A stretch of DNA of 64,000 bases from Marinobacterium aestuarii. GTDB taxonomy: Bacteria > Pseudomonadota > Gammaproteobacteria > Pseudomonadales > Balneatricaceae. Location of the stretch: the NCBI RefSeq assembly GCF_001651805.1, contig NZ_CP015839.1:868001-932000 (forward strand), read 5' to 3'. Within the stretch, counting starts at the first letter, position 1. Every line of letters starts with the position of its first letter. Positions 11,926-29,963 of the stretch are shown here, piece after piece. The position numbers were made by a program, and so were the translations under genes. The notes under the pieces are model-generated. The model searched no databases. It was given only the letters and a program-made list of their open reading frames with translations, and had not been told where the DNA came from.

Positions 11926-13440
11926 TTAAGTGGCTTTTCCTCTGGAGAAGCGAGCCTTGATCAGACGCGGCAGCGCTGTCTGGCTGATGATCAGCCAGGT
12001 GACCACCAGGGTCAGGATCAGCGAGATCGGGCTGGTCACCAGTTCGTGCATGAGGCCCAGCGTGCTGTCCCCCACCGAGATCATCGCCCGTCTATAGGAC
12101 ACGTCCATCAGGGGGCCCAGGATCACGCCGAGAATAATAGGCCCCACCTGGAACCCGGCCATCTTCAGGAAGTAGCCAAAGACCCCAAAGCCCAGCAGCC
12201 AGAAGATATCGGCAATGTTGTTGTTGATGGCATAGGCACCCACTACCGACAGAATAATAATCAGTGGCAACAGCAGCCCCTTGGGCATTTCCACCATCTT
12301 GGCAAAAATCTTGATGCCGGTGAGGCCAAAGATCAGCAGGAAGATGTTGGCCAGGGTCAGGTTACCTACGGTAAACCAGAACAGGTGCGGGGTTTCGATC
12401 ATCATCATCGGGCCTGGTTTCAGGCCGTGGATATAGAGTGCACCGATAATGACGGCGGTCACTGCATCACCCGGCATGCCGAGTGTCAGCATCGGAATAT
12501 AGGCACCACCGACGGCGGCATTGTTGGCCGATTCCGGCGCCACCAGGCCTTCGTAAGCGCCTTCGCCAAAGGGTTTGGACGGATTTTTTACCGAGCGCTT
12601 GGCGTGGTCATAGGCCATCAGGGAGGCAATATCGCCGCCGGTGCCGGGCAGAGCGCCGATAAAGACGCCAATAAAGGATGTCCGGATCGACAGGGGCAGG
12701 TATTTCAGCACCACCGACCAGGATGGAATGATTTTGGAGACATCCTGCTTGATGGGTTTGAGGCCTATATGGTGCAGCTGGAACAGGGCCTCGGAGACAC
12801 CGAAGAAGCCGATCATGGCGACCACATAGGGAATGCCGCCCAGCAGCATCACTGTATCGAAGGTAAAGCGGCCTTCCGCGGTCATCGGGTCCATGCCCAC
12901 CATGCCGATACAGGCACCGAAGGCGGCACAGAAGATGCCCTTGGCCATGGACTCGCCCGACAGGCTCGCCACCAGCAGCAGTCCCATCAGCGCCAATAGC
13001 AGATAGTCGCGCGGGGCAAACATCAGCGCCACATCCGACACCAGTGGTGCGGCGATGGCCAGTACCAGAATGCCGATAAAACCACCGATAACCGAGACGA
13101 CAGTGGTGACGCCGATGGCCTGGCCGGCGAGGCCCTGCTTGGCCAGCGGGAAGCCATCGAAGGCGGTGGCGATGGCCGATGGCGCACCTGGAATATTCAG
13201 TAAAATGGCAGAACGGGAACCCCCATAAACACCGCCGATATAGACGCCGACCATCAGCGCCAGGGCGTTGTTCACGTCCCAGGAAAAGGTAAAGGAAATC
13301 AGGATCGATACGGCCATGGTGACCGACAGACCCGGAATGGCACCGACATAGATCCCCGCCAGGGTGCCCAGGGCGGTAAGCCCGAGCAGCGAGGGGTCCA
13401 TCCAGGACATCATAAAGTAACCGAACATGGAATCAGCCAT
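11926..13440 (-). CDS. tctA: TctA-family permease of a tripartite tricarboxylate transporter
   Basis: Large membrane subunit of a TTT-family secondary carboxylate transporter; 504 residues with about 11-12 hydrophobic helices. The N-terminal repeat carries the TctA glycine/proline motif GIYVGAIPGLSVTMA (about 29-43), and a second such motif, GALPGTGGD, lies in the middle of the protein. AAGGAGT precedes the ATG. It is the last gene of tctC-tctB-tctA on the minus strand. Substrates of this family range from citrate to aromatic and other carboxylates and cannot be predicted from the permease. Confidence 0.93.
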   Translation of the reverse strand: MADSMFGYFMMSWMDPSLLGLTALGTLAGIYVGAIPGLSVTMAVSILISFTFSWDVNNALALMVGVYIGGVYGGSRSAILLNIPGAPSAIATAFDGFPLAKQGLAGQAIGVTTVVSVIGGFIGILVLAIAAPLVSDVALMFAPRDYLLLALMGLLLVASLSGESMAKGIFCAAFGACIGMVGMDPMTAEGRFTFDTVMLLGGIPYVVAMIGFFGVSEALFQLHHIGLKPIKQDVSKIIPSWSVVLKYLPLSIRTSFIGVFIGALPGTGGDIASLMAYDHAKRSVKNPSKPFGEGAYEGLVAPESANNAAVGGAYIPMLTLGMPGDAVTAVIIGALYIHGLKPGPMMMIETPHLFWFTVGNLTLANIFLLIFGLTGIKIFAKMVEMPKGLLLPLIIILSVVGAYAINNNIADIFWLLGFGVFGYFLKMAGFQVGPIILGVILGPLMDVSYRRAMISVGDSTLGLMHELVTSPISLILTLVVTWLIISQTALPRLIKARFSRGKAT

Positions 13441-13460
13441 CAGAACACTCCTTACTCAGC

Positions 13461-13931
13461 TCAGGGCAAGACAACCCGGAACAGGTAGTTGAACAGGCCG
13501 TAAATCACGACAACAGCGACGGCGGCGATAAGAATGCTGCGCAGCGGTGTGCTGCCGCGCAGGTAGATAAAGCCGCAGCACAAAAACAAAAAGGTGCTGA
13601 TCAGAAAGCCCAGCGGCTGCAACAGGAACATGTAAGCCACGATGAGTGCGGTGAACAGCACGATGCGCAACGGCATCAACTCGTTGATCACGCGCCAGGC
13701 AGGTGGCTTGTCCTGTTTCGGTATCCGGCGTGCGATGCGCCAGTTCTGCACCACCAGACAGAGCATGGCGCCGGTCATGATGGCGGAGGACACCACCGGA
13801 AAGGCGCCGGGGGTACTGAGGCCCGAGAAGCCTGAAATGGCGATGGCCTGATACAAAACGAAAGCGCTGAACGCCAGCAACAACCAGCTGATCACCGCTT
13901 CGCCGGGGTGAAGTTTGCGTGCAATTTTCAT
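13461..13931 (-). CDS. tctB: TctB-family small membrane subunit
   Basis: 156 residues with four predicted helices (AVISWLLLAFSAFVLYQAI; FPVVSSAIMTGAMLCLVV; MPLRIVLFTALIVAYMFLL; ILIAAVAVVVIYGLF), typical of the poorly conserved TctB subunit. I start it at the ATG at 13931; a GTG four codons earlier is possible. It lies 20 bp before tctA and after tctC, so the three form an operon. Confidence 0.88.
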   Translation of the reverse strand: MKIARKLHPGEAVISWLLLAFSAFVLYQAIAISGFSGLSTPGAFPVVSSAIMTGAMLCLVVQNWRIARRIPKQDKPPAWRVINELMPLRIVLFTALIVAYMFLLQPLGFLISTFLFLCCGFIYLRGSTPLRSILIAAVAVVVIYGLFNYLFRVVLP

Positions 13932-13985
13932 AGGGAGTACCACTTGTCCACAGGGCAGGGGTGCCCTGTGGAAGAGCTTGCGGGA

Positions 13986-14990
13986 TCAGGGCTTGGCGAT
14001 GCCAAACTCGGCCGGTGACACCTTGGTTTCACCTACGGCTTCCAGCGACCAGGCAGTGACGGACTGCCAGTGCTTGAGGAAAGCATCGGCTTCGTCACCG
14101 CTGATATTGGTGACCACGGCGCCGAAATCCTGCATGAACTTGCCGAACTGCTCGGTGGCAGCGGCCTGCTGGAAGGCATCGGTCAGCTTGGCCTTGGCAT
14201 CTTCTGGAATATCACGCTTGGCAAAGACGCCGTAGAAGGGCCCCCAGGGCAGGAATTTTTTGAATTCCGGCAGGTCAGCGGTGATCAGCGGAATTTCTTC
14301 CAGACCTGCTACCGGTGTATCGGACAGTACCGCCAGGGCTTTTACACGACCGGCGCGGATATGTTCGCGTACGGCGGTAAGGCCGGCCGGCATGAAGTCG
14401 ACATGGCCGCCCTGCAGGGCGGTGATGCCGGGGCCTTCGCCGTCAAAGGGGACGGCACGAACATCAAAGTCGGTGGCGGTTTTCAGCATGGCGCCGACCA
14501 CAAAGGGCAGGCCGCCGGGGCCGGTTGAACCCATTTTGACCGTGCCAGGGTTGGCCTGGGCATCGGCAACCAGTTCTTTCATCGAGGTCCAGGGCTTGTC
14601 GTTGTTGGCGACAATGACCACCACGCCACGGGCCAGAATGTTCACCGGGTAGAAGTCGGCGTAATCCAGCTTGGACAGGCCCAGCACCTTGTGCAGCTGC
14701 GGGTTTTCCGCACCGTACAGCAGGGTGTAGCCATCGCTGGGGCGTGAATTGACGTAGTTGGTAGAGATGGCACCGGCGCCGCCGGACTTGTTCACCAGTA
14801 CGATCTCCCCGCCGAGCAGCGGTTCAACCAGCGGCGTCACGGCACGGGCGACGTTATCGGTCGCACCGCCAGCGCCCCACATGATGGCGCCCTGAAGGTT
14901 TTTCTCGGGGAAATCGGCGGCCTGGAGGCCGGTAGACAAAAGGCCTGCCAGAGCGCTGCAGACGAGGGCTTTCTTGATGGAGTGAGTCAT
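13986..14990 (-). CDS. tctC: TctC-family (Bug) periplasmic substrate-binding protein
   Basis: 334-residue extracytoplasmic binding protein of the TTT transporter. Signal peptide MTHSIKKALVCSALAGLLST with cleavage near LQA-AD. The mature protein has the Bug-family features: GGATDNVARAV near the N-terminus (ligand-carboxylate loop), the NKSGGAGAISTNYV segment and GSTGPGGLPFVVGAML. Upstream (14991-15220) is an AT-rich region with a duplicated TATATATGTTAT motif and no gene. The neighbouring dehydrogenase, TIM-barrel protein and VOC protein suggest a cyclic polyol acid or shikimate-type ligand, as inference. Confidence 0.92.
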   Translation of the reverse strand: MTHSIKKALVCSALAGLLSTGLQAADFPEKNLQGAIMWGAGGATDNVARAVTPLVEPLLGGEIVLVNKSGGAGAISTNYVNSRPSDGYTLLYGAENPQLHKVLGLSKLDYADFYPVNILARGVVVIVANNDKPWTSMKELVADAQANPGTVKMGSTGPGGLPFVVGAMLKTATDFDVRAVPFDGEGPGITALQGGHVDFMPAGLTAVREHIRAGRVKALAVLSDTPVAGLEEIPLITADLPEFKKFLPWGPFYGVFAKRDIPEDAKAKLTDAFQQAAATEQFGKFMQDFGAVVTNISGDEADAFLKHWQSVTAWSLEAVGETKVSPAEFGIAKP

Positions 14991-15220: not shown

Positions 15221-16270
15221 TCAGTTTGATATCTGAACGCTGCCACCGGTACGGGTTGCCAGGCTGATGGCTTCGATTACCCTCAGGTTCTGCAAGCCAT
15301 CCGCAATGCTGACAAGAGGCGACGCCTGGTCGCGAATGACGGCGCAAAAGTGCACCAGTTGCTGGGCCAGCGGATCCAGGCGTTCCACATTGAGCGTAGA
15401 GCACTCAAAGGGCTTCCACCAAGAACGTTCAGCCTGGCCTGGATAGCGCTTCATGCGCAGCGTGGGGATTGCCAGGGAGCCCTGAGTGCCGGCGATGAGG
15501 TAGCAGTCTTCATCCGGGTAGTGGGCGTAGCTTTTGTTCTCATGGGAGCTTTGCTCCCAGCTGCGGGCACAGGCGGCGGTATCGGACAAGATGAACGAGC
15601 CCAGGGTGCCGTTGGCAAAACGCAGGCTCAGAGCCACCGTATCTTCAACCTCGAAGTTACGCTGCGCACTGGATGCCATGGCCTGTACCTCCAGGATCTC
15701 GCCGCACAGATAACGCAGGTTGCCGATCTCATGCACCATGTTGACCAGAATGGGGCCGGCGCCCTTGCGGCTGCGCCAGGGGGATTGCTCGAAATAGGCG
15801 TCGGGCTTGAAAAACATGGCGCTGCCGCTGACGGCCACCAGATCACCGAGAACATACTCGTCGATGATCTGTTTGGCTTTGGCAATAATGGGGCTGTGGT
15901 AGCGGTGATGACCCACCAGGCACTTGGCCTTGGCCGATAGCGCCGCATTCAGTAATTTGGCGCCTTCTTCCAGGGTGTGGGCGACCGGCTTTTCGATCAG
16001 TACCGGCACTGCGGCGGCGATGCAGGCAAGTCCCTGCTCGACATGAAGGTGGTTGGGCGTGGCCAGAATGATGCCGTCGGGTCTGCCGTGGTTTAACAGC
16101 TCATCAAGTGATGCGAACCAGGTTGTGCCATAGCTCTGGGCCATGGTTCTGGCGTCTGCACAGGGATCTACCACCGCCGCGAGCATGCAATCTTCGCTCG
16201 CGACCAGTAGATCCATATGGGCTTTGCCAATGATGCCTGCACCGACAACGGCAATCTTGAGTGGAGTCAT
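15221..16270 (-). CDS. Gfo/Idh/MocA-family NAD(P)-dependent oxidoreductase
   Basis: 349 residues. The N-terminal Rossmann fold begins at residue 4 with KIAVVGAGIIGKAHMDLL. The EKP motif of the family is at about residue 93-95 (VLIEKPVAHTL), where Lys is the usual catalytic residue. The C-terminal alpha/beta domain contains MVHEIGNLRYLCGE, where His is the usual substrate-contacting residue. The enzyme probably oxidises a hydroxyl of a cyclic polyol or sugar acid. It is divergent from a LysR gene and upstream of tctCBA on the same strand, so it is likely part of the same catabolic unit. The exact substrate is unknown. Confidence 0.9.
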   Translation of the reverse strand: MTPLKIAVVGAGIIGKAHMDLLVASEDCMLAAVVDPCADARTMAQSYGTTWFASLDELLNHGRPDGIILATPNHLHVEQGLACIAAAVPVLIEKPVAHTLEEGAKLLNAALSAKAKCLVGHHRYHSPIIAKAKQIIDEYVLGDLVAVSGSAMFFKPDAYFEQSPWRSRKGAGPILVNMVHEIGNLRYLCGEILEVQAMASSAQRNFEVEDTVALSLRFANGTLGSFILSDTAACARSWEQSSHENKSYAHYPDEDCYLIAGTQGSLAIPTLRMKRYPGQAERSWWKPFECSTLNVERLDPLAQQLVHFCAVIRDQASPLVSIADGLQNLRVIEAISLATRTGGSVQISN

Positions 16271-16396: not shown

Positions 16397-17317
16397 ATGA
16401 AGAATAACTGGGAGCTGGTCGACCTGTCGGTGTTCTGCGCGGTGGTCAAGTGCGGCAGTTTTACCGAGGCGGCGAAGGAGCTGGGTTATTCGGGGCCCTA
16501 TGTCAGCAAGCGCATTGCGGACCTTGAAACCAAGCTCGGCGCCAGGCTGTTTAATCGCACCACGCGCAGCATTCAGATCACCCCCGAGGGGCAGATTGCC
16601 CATGCCTGGGCCTGCAAAATTCTGGATGCTACCCAGGCCATGGCCAGGGATGTGGCGAACAGCAAGACCTCACCGACCGGGAGCCTGCGCATCAGCACCA
16701 GCCTGCGGCTGGGGCGCAATCATGTCGCGCCCATCCTGTCGCAGCTGGTAAGGGATCATCCTGGGCTCGATGTATGGCTGGAGCTGGTGGATCGCCGGGT
16801 GGATTTGCTGGAAGAGGGTATCGATATCGACATAAGGTCCGGCGGCGTTGATGAGCCCCATCTGGTGTCGCAGCTGGTGGTGGAATCGGCCCGGATTTTA
16901 TGTGCCACACCGGAGTATCTGGCAAGACAGGGTACGCCCAAGGTCCTGACCGACCTGAGTCAGCATCAGTGCATGCTGTTTCGGGATGGGGACTATCCCT
17001 TCGGTTCCTGGCGGCTGAATGGGCCCAATGGCCTTGAAACCGTTCGTGTGTCCGGCAATGTGCTGCGTTCTCATCACAGCGATGTGGTGAAAAACTGGGC
17101 GCTGGATGGCCAGGGCGTCATTCTGTTATCAGAGTGGGACGCCGCAGCCAGTTTGCGCGATGGCAGCTTCGTCAGGGTGTTGCCGCAATACAGTTACAAG
17201 GTTGATATCTGGGCCGTTACACAGGCGCGCCTGAGCCATTCGGCGCGAATGAAAGTCTGTGTCGATTATCTGGTTGAAAAGCTGAGAGTCGGTCCCTTTG
17301 CGCTGGATACCATGTGA
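16397..17317 (+). CDS. LysR-family transcriptional regulator
   Basis: 306 residues. The N-terminal winged helix-turn-helix is DLSVFCAVVKCGSFTEAAKELG, followed by the recognition helix around SGPYVSKRIADLE. The effector domain resembles the CrgA/DsdC-like branch (GSLRISTSLRLGRNHVAPIL). It is divergently transcribed from the Gfo/Idh dehydrogenase and convergent with the TIM-barrel gene, so it probably regulates the surrounding carboxylate cluster. The inducer is unknown. Confidence 0.9.
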   Translation: MKNNWELVDLSVFCAVVKCGSFTEAAKELGYSGPYVSKRIADLETKLGARLFNRTTRSIQITPEGQIAHAWACKILDATQAMARDVANSKTSPTGSLRISTSLRLGRNHVAPILSQLVRDHPGLDVWLELVDRRVDLLEEGIDIDIRSGGVDEPHLVSQLVVESARILCATPEYLARQGTPKVLTDLSQHQCMLFRDGDYPFGSWRLNGPNGLETVRVSGNVLRSHHSDVVKNWALDGQGVILLSEWDAAASLRDGSFVRVLPQYSYKVDIWAVTQARLSHSARMKVCVDYLVEKLRVGPFALDTM

Positions 17318-17340: not shown

Positions 17341-18195
17341 TCAGTCCAGCCCGTCGAGCAGCCACTGGCGTGACTGGGTGGCGTGTTGCAGCGCATCCTG
17401 CGGTGCCTGGGCCAGGTACTTGTCGTTGAAAACGTCGAACACATAATCCCCCCGGTAGCCGATACCCTGGCAGTAGCGAATCAGTTCACGGATGCTCTGG
17501 CCATGGCTGCCTTCCCCCGGGTAAAGACGGGCATGGCGGGCGATATCGATCTGGTCTTCCAGAGCCGGAATGGCGCTCATGGCAAAATCCGACAACTGCA
17601 CCAGGCTGATACGCTCAACAGGAATCTCGGCCAGGGACTCAGGACCCTGAGCCTGGGCCAGCAGGTGGAAGCTGTCGATCACCAGGCTGAGGTTGGTGTT
17701 GCCCGCCCGTTTGATAATGTCCCAGGCCAGCGGATAGTTGTGCACATCGTGGGCCCAGGCCAGCGGCTTGAAGCCGATACGGATACCGCGCAGCGTTGCC
17801 AGTGTCGCCAGGGTGCGCAGGTCCGCCGCCATGCGGTCTATATCCACCGAAGCGTGGGACGAGGTGGCGGGGGTGACGATCAGCAGGCGACAGCCCAGGC
17901 GAGCCATGAGTTGCAGGTAGGTTTTGGCCAGCTCAATCTTGTAGGCCATGATCCGGCCTGAGTGCCCGCCAAAGTCACGCACTTCCTGCAGCGCGCTGAT
18001 GCGCAGGCCGCTGCTGCGGATGCGCTCTATCGAGCCGCTGAGGCCATCCTTGGCCCCCGACAAATCCAGTGCGCCCAGTTCGACGGCATCAAAGCCCGCC
18101 GCGGCTATGGCCTGGAGTTTGGCGTCCAGGGTGCCGGTCAGGCTCAGGCTGCTGATGGAAAAATGCGGTACTGTGCTGTTGTCGCCTTGAGTCAT
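17341..18195 (-). CDS. TIM-barrel protein, QuiC1-type 3-dehydroshikimate dehydratase-like
   Basis: 284 residues of the xylose-isomerase-like/AP endonuclease 2 TIM-barrel family, closest in layout to the N-terminal half of QuiC1-type 3-dehydroshikimate dehydratases (SLSGTL-like start, LAWAHDVHNYPLAWDI, IDSFH, LVQLSDF, FNDKY). In metal-dependent relatives a Glu sits in the FExLAW strand and another precedes I-F-N-D. Here these are Lys143 and Asp254, while Asp174 and Gln200 are kept. The metal site is therefore altered, and dehydratase activity should not be assumed. It starts 6 bp after the VOC gene stop, so the two are an operon. In QuiC1 proteins known to me, both parts are one polypeptide with the TIM barrel first; here they are separate and the order is reversed. 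Confidence 0.8.
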   Translation of the reverse strand: MTQGDNSTVPHFSISSLSLTGTLDAKLQAIAAAGFDAVELGALDLSGAKDGLSGSIERIRSSGLRISALQEVRDFGGHSGRIMAYKIELAKTYLQLMARLGCRLLIVTPATSSHASVDIDRMAADLRTLATLATLRGIRIGFKPLAWAHDVHNYPLAWDIIKRAGNTNLSLVIDSFHLLAQAQGPESLAEIPVERISLVQLSDFAMSAIPALEDQIDIARHARLYPGEGSHGQSIRELIRYCQGIGYRGDYVFDVFNDKYLAQAPQDALQHATQSRQWLLDGLD

Positions 18196-18201
18196 GGATA
18201 C

Positions 18202-19050
18202 TTACCGGCCGATAAAGAAATTGACGCTGGAATCGAACAGCGGGTGCTGCACGGCATAACAGTCGTTTGGCTGTGTGCCTGTCTGGGTACTCGCAGGGCC
18301 TGCGGGCCTGAACTGTAGCCCGCTAGCGCTGAAGTGGGCCTCTGTACCGGCCAGGTCCGAAGTGCTGAGCTCGATACTGGCAAAGCCTTCGTCGGCAAGA
18401 TCTCTGTGCTCGCCGTCCAGTTCCTGAAACCGCAATTGCAGTACTCCATCGGGGCTGGTGACAAGGTCAGGTTCGGTGGCGCTGAATCCGAATAGCTGAC
18501 AAAAGAAGTCGCTCCATTCGGGGCTGCGCCCGGCACAGACTGACAGCGTCAGCCCGCTGACCTGCTGCAGCTGTTCTGCCGGGACTTCAGTGTCTGGCAG
18601 GGCCTTGAAATCAATATCGTAAATACTGAGGTCCTGACCGTAGCGGTCGATCAGGTAAATCTGGCTGCCGCCGATGCACTCCAGCGCCGGGATGTTGAGT
18701 TCCATCACGCCTGCTGTCGTGCTGGCCTCCCAGGCGCCCCGTGCCAGCAGGGTCTGGTAGGCGCTGTTGGCATCGTTAACCCGCAGCGCCAGGGCGCAAA
18801 TGGAAGCACCGTGCTGCTGCGCGTAAGACTGGGCAAAGCTGCCAGGGGTGGCGTTGACGATAAAATTGATCTCTCCCTGACGGTACAGGGTGACATCCTT
18901 GCTGCGGTGCCGGGCGCAGGCCCTAAATCCCAGTTGCTCCAGAAAACTCACCAGCTGTGCAGGATCGGGCGCGGCGAATTCAACAAATTCCAGACCCTCA
19001 ATGCGCACGGCAGAGGTGTCAGTGACGGTCTTGGTACTGGTGTCCGACAT
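18202..19050 (-). CDS. VOC-family, 4-hydroxyphenylpyruvate dioxygenase-like protein
   Basis: 282 residues from the ATG at 19050; an in-frame ATG at 19185 would add 45 residues that do not resemble the family. The N-terminal half is clearly HPPD-like (LEFVEFAAPDP, RSKDVTLYRQGEINFIVNA, ELNIPALECIGGSQIYLIDRYG). In the C-terminal half, which carries the catalytic iron in HPPD, the expected ligands are replaced. No His is found in VSGLTLSV or GFASIEL, and the final Glu position reads NFFIGR. It is therefore probably not an HPPD but a partner of the downstream TIM-barrel protein, like the C-terminal domain of QuiC1. It is divergent from the GntR regulator. Confidence 0.78.
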   Translation of the reverse strand: MSDTSTKTVTDTSAVRIEGLEFVEFAAPDPAQLVSFLEQLGFRACARHRSKDVTLYRQGEINFIVNATPGSFAQSYAQQHGASICALALRVNDANSAYQTLLARGAWEASTTAGVMELNIPALECIGGSQIYLIDRYGQDLSIYDIDFKALPDTEVPAEQLQQVSGLTLSVCAGRSPEWSDFFCQLFGFSATEPDLVTSPDGVLQLRFQELDGEHRDLADEGFASIELSTSDLAGTEAHFSASGLQFRPAGPASTQTGTQPNDCYAVQHPLFDSSVNFFIGR

Positions 19051-19370
19051 GTGCTGGATGTCTCCCTGGGGTGATTCAACCTGGTCTCGCAGGCGCTGTC
19101 CGGCGGCGCAGCCACTGCAGTATAGGCGCTCGGTTGTGCAGCGGGGCTCGGGCAGGGCTGGTTTGATATCGCGATCAAGTGCCATATCTTTATTGTTAAA
19201 TACTACTTAATTAGTTTAATAATATCTATTTTTATATGTGATGTTACTTGTCGCAGCCGCAATACTTCATTGAAATGCGGCGATTGGCTTTCAATGCCGA
19301 TCTTGTTAGCTTAGGCCCCTACTTGAACAAAGGGTGCCGCGTTCCTGCGCAGGCCCAGACCGGTACAGCA

Positions 19371-20048
19371 ATGAACACTGACGACGAGAACAGCAGCACC
19401 TGTCAGCAGCTGCGCAATGACATTCTGGATGGCTCCATTGAGCCTGCCAGCAAGCTGTCCATCAGTCACCTGTCGGCTCGCTATGAATCCAGCGCAGCGC
19501 CGGTGCGTGAAGCTCTTTCCCGCCTGGCGGCGGAGGGGCTGGTTGTTCGCAAGGGCCAGCGCGGTTACTGGGCAGCGCCGGTGTCGGTGGAGGAGTTTCT
19601 GGAAGTGGCGCGCCTGCGTGTCATGCTGGAAGTGGATGCGTTTCGCCAGTCCATCCGCCACGGCGACCTCGATTGGGAAGCAGGTATTGCTGGTGCTAGG
19701 CACCGTGAACTGAGCGTGCGCCGCGCAGCCCAGGGGCAATTAAAGGAGAGGGCTGGTGAGCTGATTCGCGAAAATCGCCGTTTTCACATGGCGCTGATCG
19801 CCCAGTGCCCGTCCAAATGGCAGCTGCGTTTCATCTCAACACTATATGATCAGTCCGAGCGCTTTCGTCGCCTGTCCCTGATTAATCTGCGCGAAGGCCC
19901 CGCGGAAGTAGACGAGCACGAGCTGATCATGGAAGCGGCCTTTCGCCGCGATGAAGAGGCCGCCTGCGAGTTACTGCGCGCGCATATCGAGCACTCCAAT
20001 AGCCGCGTCGTCGAAACCCTGTTTCCGGATACAAAAGCAGACGGGTAG
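19371..20048 (+). CDS. GntR-family regulator, FadR/FCD type
   Basis: 225 residues from the ATG at 19371; an upstream in-frame TTG (19248) would add 41 residues without family resemblance. The N-terminal winged helix (about residues 10-70: LRNDILDGSI, then SAAPVREALSRLAAEGLV) is followed by an FCD ligand-binding domain (about 80-215) with the metal/ligand His pattern in FHMAL and in LRAHIEHS. These regulators usually repress carboxylate or sugar-acid catabolism until a small acid binds. The divergent VOC/TIM-barrel operon is the most likely target; the AT-rich 19190-19240 segment would hold the operator. Confidence 0.88.
   Translation: MNTDDENSSTCQQLRNDILDGSIEPASKLSISHLSARYESSAAPVREALSRLAAEGLVVRKGQRGYWAAPVSVEEFLEVARLRVMLEVDAFRQSIRHGDLDWEAGIAGARHRELSVRRAAQGQLKERAGELIRENRRFHMALIAQCPSKWQLRFISTLYDQSERFRRLSLINLREGPAEVDEHELIMEAAFRRDEEAACELLRAHIEHSNSRVVETLFPDTKADG

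Positions 20049-28700: not shown

Positions 28701-29963
<1,263 letters not shown>

Follow-up and report, generated by a model that had tools for sequence, protein, structure and literature searches.

A conserved VOC-TIM gene pair related to QuiC1, with a remodelled metal site in its Marinobacterium branch

The window analysed here, a stretch of 64,000 nucleotides comprising bases 868001-932000 of the 5.19-Mb chromosome of Marinobacterium aestuarii, contains a pair of adjacent genes that encode a VOC protein and a TIM barrel. We regard the two, with high confidence, as a two-protein relative of QuiC1, the 3-dehydroshikimate dehydratase in which both folds are joined in one polypeptide. An earlier note, made from the letters of the window, had taken the pair for the separated and reordered halves of a QuiC1 enzyme with altered metal sites. 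This framing of broken halves gives way to a conserved two-gene family, with one branch, that of Marinobacterium, in which the metal site is remodelled. As a whole, we tentatively favour the reading that the pair is a QuiC1-like lyase made of two proteins, probably free of metal, whose substrates are ketones derived from quinate or shikimate; the complex, the loss of the metal and the reaction, every catalytic step included, are what we infer from comparison of sequences.

Both genes lie on the minus strand, the VOC gene first, with a gap of 6 bp (18196-18201) between them; coordinates, strand, order and gap are all as the earlier note had given them. The start codon of the VOC gene was set by analogy with its homologues, and its open reading frame (ORF) stays open to 19185. 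The best sequence match of the TIM protein in the PDB is the QuiC1 fusion 5hmq (E 6.6e-37), followed by IolI (1i60, 1e-7), and no AsbF is found among its four PDB sequence hits. Its AlphaFold2 model has a pLDDT of 93.0, and Foldseek places 5hmq as the top PDB fold (TMq 0.89). IolI and IolE (1i60, 3cny) share the AP_endonuc_2 barrel, and IolI has a Glu opposite K143 of the window protein; IolI is nonetheless more distant from the window TIM than QuiC1 is, with a TMq of 0.84 and 18% identity for 1i60 compared with 0.89 and 31% for 5hmq.

The N-terminal half of the VOC protein is closest, in sequence and in fold, to bacterial 4-hydroxyphenylpyruvate dioxygenase (HPPD; 1cjx, 9qmf). It qualifies as an HPPD N-terminal domain, with a PF14696 match of 181.6 bits against a cut-off of 27, and it is closer to bacterial HPPD 1cjx (E 1.5e-44) than to the C-terminal part of 5hmq (E 1.6e-29); with its AlphaFold2 model (pLDDT 89.7), Foldseek likewise returns bacterial HPPD first from the PDB and then 5hmq. 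Unlike HPPD, the protein has a shortened C-terminal half that has lost all three iron ligands, and it reaches 110.8 bits against the TIGR01263 cut-off of 277. Sequence and fold matches thus agree that the pair are homologues of the two QuiC1 halves in reversed order. With QuiC1 and QsuB (5hmq; NF042435) the pair shares both folds, most active-site residues and a gene context of quinate, shikimate and protocatechuate metabolism. It differs from them in comprising two ORFs with the VOC gene first, where the QuiC1 class has a single polypeptide with the TIM barrel N-terminal and the HPPD-like domain C-terminal, and in having Ala in place of S206; the Marinobacterium branch also replaces two metal-site Glu residues. 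Against NF042435 (QuiC) the TIM protein scores 158 bits and the VOC protein 133, compared with a full-length cut-off of 1200.

When one genome per species was scanned, at least 553 relatives emerged, and the 80 best loci among them were retained. Beside the window, 86 TIM loci were examined, including three plasmid loci (Azoarcus, Massilia and Vitreoscilla) and three further family loci; L055, L057, L058, L060 and L061 (L denoting a locus, G a genome) were excluded from residue counts, being from the same genomes as L064-L068. A VOC gene is present in 83 of the 86 loci and lies upstream of the TIM gene on the same strand in 83 of 83, the remaining three (L089, L120, L123) ending close to the TIM gene. 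A picture of one odd QuiC1 split does not hold, the same order being seen at every locus that has both genes. The window pair fits the family proposed here in both the upstream, same-strand position of its VOC gene and the Ala (A219) at the position of QuiC1 S206. Members are mostly from Burkholderiales, and their prevalence is patchy: at E <= 1e-46 they occur in 16 of 250 genomes in the order of G267 (by sequence, the order of the Burkholderiales-type members), in 2 of 369 in an even draw of the class and in 14 of 116 in the window's own family, the last two figures including the window's own genome. We conclude that the pair is a conserved unit and that the family is patchy but widespread, with a fixed VOC-TIM order.

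The metal site is where the window protein departs from most of its relatives. In the local alignment with 5hmq, whose chain index equals the published QuiC1 numbering plus 2, there are no gaps near either site, and K143 aligns with E134 and D254 with E239, the two being the residues that the earlier note had found in place of metal-binding Glu. Where QuiC1 has E134, D165, Q191 and E239, which we take to be its metal ligands, the window TIM therefore has K143, D174, Q200 and D254, and the full set is not matched. Site geometry was judged from the alignment and predicted secondary structure; strand 139-142 of the model directly precedes K143 and strand 250-253 directly precedes D254, as expected of metal-site positions. 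The active-site list for QuiC1/QsuB in the available part of PMC7442255 comprises Arg64, Leu97, Glu134, Leu136, Asp165, His168, Gln191, Ser206, Arg210 and Glu239. R64, L136, H168 and R210 from this list are kept in the window TIM as R73, L145, H177 and R223, the counterpart of Leu97 is not resolved in the alignment, and the replacement of S206 by A219 is common to 85 of 87 split TIMs.

All 12 TIMs of the Marinobacterium branch combine K143 with D254, down to 63% identity and beyond what chance would give, and the same 12 keep L145, D174, Q200 and R223. Outside this branch, Glu is found at both positions in 77 of 79 split TIMs, the exceptions being Azoarcus (E/D) and G030 (R/S), and in 6 of 6 fusions, with D174 in 79 and Q200 in 78 of the 79. 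Since these 77 keep both Glu residues, splitting into two genes and alteration of the metal site were separate events. When all other single-protein TIMs in the alignment are counted (n=80), the residues at 143/254 are E/E in 77, E/D in one (Azoarcus), R/S in one (G030, which has R143, R200, S254 and R259) and K/F in one. The last, from G109 (L148), is a lone TIM with K143 and F254 beside a LigB gene (PF02900, 224 bits); no VOC gene was found around it in the 3.8 kb examined. The note had allowed that its view would fall if the barrel belonged to a subfamily in which Lys is normal: Lys is indeed normal in the Marinobacterium branch and present in the lone G109 protein, but no other split TIM examined has it.

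Substitution rates argue against decay. Between the window and its three closest species (G003, G002 and G006) the ratio of nonsynonymous to synonymous substitution rates (dN/dS) is 0.046-0.090 for the TIM gene, and for the whole QuiC1 fusion gene it is 0.071 between the window and G003; the VOC gene gives 0.15-0.19 against close species. The TIM gene is under selection and is not decaying, although over longer spans it is freer than QuiC1. The residue patterns indicate that the metal site in the Marinobacterium branch is altered in a conserved, selected way, and we consider it rather probable that this branch is metal-free. Loss of the metal is suggested because a cation persists at position 143 while the partner residue varies, as seen in two divergent sequences.

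The VOC protein has in turn lost the iron site of its HPPD relatives. His occupies the two iron-His positions in 7 of the 7 HPPDs used (9 loci were tried, two of which lacked a usable frame). In Marinobacterium-type VOCs (8/8) the first of these positions is G, S or A and the second S, A or C, and in betaproteobacterial VOCs the first is G in 74 of 75 and the second R in 74 of 75. The third HPPD ligand, a Glu that falls in SFELV of the betaproteobacterial members, aligns with Phe in the window VOC, which thus has none of the two His and one Glu that bind iron in HPPD. Residue alignment accordingly agrees with the note that the C-terminal half lacks all three ligands; the loss of the iron-His residues is no peculiarity of the M. 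aestuarii genome, the betaproteobacterial members already being without both. Trees were built from 26 TIM and 25 VOC split rows out of 87, without L035, L036 and L049 for the TIM and without L063 for the VOC; five of 20 HPPD-type stretches, which failed the motif match, were also kept out of the VOC tree. In the VOC tree the split proteins form one clade (97/92) that is grouped with HPPDs apart from the fusion C-domains (100/99), and the test does not reject a tree constrained to unite the split with the fusion VOCs (p-AU 0.058). This topology suggests that an HPPD was recruited as the VOC partner separately from the QuiC1 fusion.

For the common, betaproteobacterial form, gene context points to function. 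Among the 48 non-Marinobacterium loci covered for at least 4 kb on both sides, at least 28 are accompanied within 5 kb by a homologue of AroE or AroQ/AroD, a count made with few reference proteins, and none has a fusion QuiC1 within the same 5 kb. A homologue of AroE, shikimate dehydrogenase, lies between the VOC and TIM genes in 13 of 83 loci, and in Polaromonas L109 a TctA homologue lies between AroE and VOC. Of 24 pair-bearing betaproteobacterial genomes, one gave a match that extends over both halves of the fusion, and the other 23 gave none. When these 24 genomes are taken with 9 of the window's family, PcaH (PF12391) scores over its cut-off in 24 of 33, LigA (PF07746) in 20 and one or the other in all 33. 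Within one order, PcaH or LigA is present in 15 of 16 pair-bearing genomes compared with 8 of 53 others (Fisher p 1.2e-8, kinship ignored), and with genomes of at least 3.5 Mb only, in 14 of 15 compared with 8 of 20 (Fisher p 0.0015, kinship again ignored); the 53 control genomes are G528-G582 less two, taken as pair-less members of that order's draw. It is thus likely, on sequence and context, that the family represents an unrecognised two-protein class of 3-dehydroshikimate dehydratase and that its betaproteobacterial members are such dehydratases.

On the plasmid of Azoarcus sp. KH32C (L051 9134-16648) the pair is part of an operon-like run of VOC, TIM, CaiB CoA transferase, citryl-CoA lyase, thiamine pyrophosphate (TPP) enzyme, shikimate dehydrogenase and AroD genes, possibly a non-aromatising ring-cleavage route for hydroaromatic acids. 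A non-aromatic quinate pathway of the kind that this operon suggested, with IolE/IolD-like steps followed by CoA transferase and citryl-CoA lyase, was rejected for the window locus: the 30 window proteins scanned with Pfam, out of 53 non-overlapping ORFs with a length of 100 aa or more, include neither a TPP enzyme nor a CoA transferase nor a citryl-CoA lyase. Three genomes also have, close to the split pair, a recurring trio of genes that encode a FAD_binding_2 protein, a NIPSNAP protein and a second TIM barrel.

In the mechanism that we propose, the TIM barrel would be the catalytic subunit that binds the keto acid, and the VOC protein its HPPD-derived partner, catalytically dead itself, with the role of stabilising or assembling the barrel; an oligomerisation or assembly role has been proposed for the C-domain of QsuB in the available part of PMC7442255. 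For QuiC1 the picture would be of a ketone polarised by a divalent metal, a base that removes a proton, and water as the leaving group. The betaproteobacterial members, with the divalent-metal site kept, would most likely convert 3-dehydroshikimate to protocatechuate. In the Marinobacterium branch the ammonium group of Lys143 would take the place of the metal and polarise the keto or enolate oxygen of the substrate during elimination, with the shortened Asp254 sitting opposite Lys143 and pairing with it, and R/K73, L145, D174, Q200 and R223 retained for binding and acid-base steps. The substrate would most likely be 3-dehydroshikimate or a close ketone derived from quinate or shikimate, the pair working under divergent GntR control beside an intact QuiC1. 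That the branch is still a dehydroshikimate dehydratase is quite conceivable from its sequence, if somewhat doubtful. In its most far-reaching form the proposal would be of a two-protein dehydratase class that falls outside the four published ones. In one of its branches a conserved Lys/Arg cation would have taken over from the divalent metal, a natural metal-to-ammonium change in a xylose-isomerase-like barrel, and the dead HPPD-derived partner would have been recruited independently of the QuiC1 fusion; all of this together we consider rather unlikely.

Several observations weigh against the favoured reading. M. aestuarii has an intact QuiC1 fusion, a 626-aa ORF at 862439-864319 (L054 12439-14319), which ends 3.7 kb short of the window's first base and is separated by 2.5 kb from a PcaH gene, besides two ordinary HPPDs. 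The pair is therefore an addition to QuiC1 and not its replacement, nor is it a locally broken form of it. Fusion and pair occur together in 9 of the 9 K- or R-type genomes examined (G000, G002-G006, G009, G024 and G030), the fusion gene adjoining the pair in G024 and lying within 2 kb of it in G009; since all nine have an intact QuiC1, formation of protocatechuate does not depend on the pair, whose function may be a different one. Position 177 (QuiC1 H168) is Gln in 6 of the 12 branch members and position 73 (QuiC1 R64) is Lys in 8. Comparison of 11 branch sequences with 77 of the common form, with G030 and Azoarcus set aside, shows a further 29 positions beyond 143 and 254 that are fixed differently, including E71, H78, T108-P109 and K259; many of these may be plain divergence, and they fit that or a new substrate as well as they fit a new mechanism. 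Against more distant species the TIM gene gives a higher dN/dS, 0.23 (G005) and 0.20 (G024), compared with 0.09-0.10 for the fusion (G004 and G024), and Arg at 143 is known from one long-branch sequence, G030. In the TIM tree the fusion side has support of 97/98 and the pair side only 67/84. The Gfo/Idh/MocA, LysR and Tct genes that neighbour the pair in the window are absent beside it in G003 and G006.

These facts have to be weighed under other explanations. A different hydroaromatic or inosose-like substrate, with the pair acting as a new dehydratase, isomerase or epimerase, is possible but on the unlikely side: the 29 fixed positions, the intact QuiC1 alongside and the varying companions (Gfo/Idh/MocA oxidoreductase, TctCBA, TRAP) all favour it, whereas the quinate and shikimate genes near 28 of 48 well-covered relatives, the PcaH-like dioxygenase beyond GntR in G002 and G006 and the LigB gene beside the G109 TIM speak against it. 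Another unlikely reading makes the Marinobacterium-type pair a paralogue without catalytic activity, whose role would be to regulate the intact QuiC1 fusion in the same cell or to assemble with it. Replacement of two metal-site Glu residues and of S206, loss of all VOC ligands and presence of the fusion in every genome examined would be expected of such a paralogue, as would a divergence greater than that of the fusion beyond the closest species (between G000 and G024, 64% identity for the TIM compared with 75%, and dN/dS of 0.20 compared with 0.10). Among close species, however, the dN/dS of the TIM resembles that of the fusion, and the constancy of L145, D174, Q200 and R223, together with substitutions that are fixed in the clade, is unlike random decay.

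Two further explanations retain a role for Lys143 other than that of a free cation. Carbamylated Lys ligands occur in other TIM barrels, and a Lys143 carbamylated by CO2 could still bind a metal, the shorter Asp254 compensating for the longer ligand; the coincidence of K143 and D254 in 12 of 12 sequences, one ligand being longer and the opposite one shorter, agrees with this. The R143/S254 of G030 and the K143/F254 of G109, however, keep the cation and not that geometry, and Azoarcus has D254 alone, with E143, so that we judge a carbamate quite improbable. Schiff-base formation between Lys143 and the substrate ketone, a class I mechanism replacing that of the metal, of the kind used by type I dehydroquinate dehydratase, would suit a Lys at a metal-ligand position presumed to face the substrate carbonyl but is incompatible with the Arg of G030, and is very unlikely. 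Arg can form neither a Schiff base nor a carbamate, and the case against both explanations is made, as is that for metal loss, by the persistence of a cation at 143.

The neighbourhood of the pair in the Marinobacterium branch points to catabolism of quinate, shikimate and hydroxybenzoate. A GntR gene is divergent beside VOC in G000, G002, G003, G006, G009 and G024; in G030 a GntR homologue lies ~3.7 kb from the pair, beyond TctCBA, and none was seen beside the pair in G004 and G005. The candidate operator matches in 10 of 10 arm positions in G006 (0/100 shuffles equal), 9 in G002, 7 in the window and in G003, 6 in G009 and 5 in G024, and is thus clear in G006 and G002 only and weak in the window, where the best arm match, 9 of 10, is in another register and is reached by 8 of 100 shuffles. 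The LysR gene is at the same place in G002. Relatives of the Gfo/Idh/MocA protein (49-58% identity), which may be a dehydrogenase of quinate/shikimate type, occur in 10 of the 75 loci L069-L143 and within 5 kb of TIM in 5 of the 48 well-covered loci; at E<=1e-50 they are present in 5 of 24 genomes, in 3 of them within 3 kb of the pair. A TctA homologue or Tct genes are found near the pair in G000, G002, G024, G009 (a fragment at the contig end) and G030, and in G004 genes for a TRAP transporter, AroQ, VOC and TIM follow in that order on one strand. A PcaH-like intradiol dioxygenase gene lies just beyond GntR in G002 and G006; the window genome has a single PcaH match, located elsewhere. The window also encodes, at 28782-29963, a PF01494 (FAD_binding_3) protein that is presumably PobA-like.

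Table 1. Positions of the gene pair, its neighbours and related features; coordinates are those of the window unless a locus is named.
Feature	Position	Strand	Remarks
TIM-barrel gene (AP_endonuc_2), homologue of QuiC1 N-domain with K143/D254/A219	17341..18195	-	284 aa; PF01261 E 1.2e-23
VOC gene, HPPD N-domain and degenerate C-half without iron ligands	18202..19050	-	282 aa; PF14696 E 1.1e-53
Candidate -10 element, TATACT, of VOC-TIM operon	19119..19124	-	CCTATACT; kept in 6/6 aligned branch upstream regions
Candidate operator, inverted repeat TAGATAYYAY-N12-GTAGTATYTA (four closest species)	19197..19228	.	arm matches given in text
GntR/FCD regulator, divergent	19248..20048	+	PF00392 and PF07729; ORF taken from TTG; translation may begin further inside
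LysR-type regulator, convergent with TIM	16397..17317	+	PF00126/PF03466
Gfo/Idh/MocA oxidoreductase, optional companion	15221..16270	-	PF01408
TctCBA tripartite tricarboxylate transporter, candidate uptake system	11926..14990	-	PF03401, PF07331, PF01970
TctC	13986-14990	-	
TctB	13461-13943	-	
TctA	11926-13440	-	
AroE homologue between VOC and TIM	L098, L103, L104, L106, L114, L118, L130, L132, L137, L142, L075, L083, L093		
FAD_binding_2/NIPSNAP/TIM trio	L061 16036-19384; L097 325-3510; L117 2307-5504		Marinobacterium litorale; Limnohabitans metagenome-assembled genome (MAG); Comamonadaceae MAG
Extra PcaH-like genes, two Marinobacterium species	L057 10510-11226; L058 11760-12476		

Other classes of dehydroshikimate dehydratase are AsbF, fungal Qa-4 and the membrane-associated enzymes, which PMC9324987 lists, and Listeria QuiC2, cited here from its title alone. 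Those with a TIM barrel share the fold, and the common reaction is a presumption for the pair. AsbF and the fungal enzymes are single-domain, unlike the pair. No description of a separate VOC-TIM pair was found in the literature searched, whose coverage did not extend to Peek 2017 and Xue 2020, so that novelty in print is not certain.

Three plasmid records annotate the pair as '4-hydroxyphenylpyruvate dioxygenase' and 'sugar phosphate isomerase/epimerase'. If the function proposed here is correct, such annotations misname the missing dehydratase step of quinate and shikimate degradation in many betaproteobacteria. In that case the Marinobacterium branch would amount to a natural experiment, with sister enzymes that have and lack a catalytic metal site in one fold. 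QsuB, QuiC1 and AsbF are described, in the available part of PMC7442255, as using divalent metals (Co, Mg and Mn for QsuB), and for this reason a metal-independent dehydroshikimate dehydratase, if the branch proves to be one, would be of interest to producers of protocatechuate.

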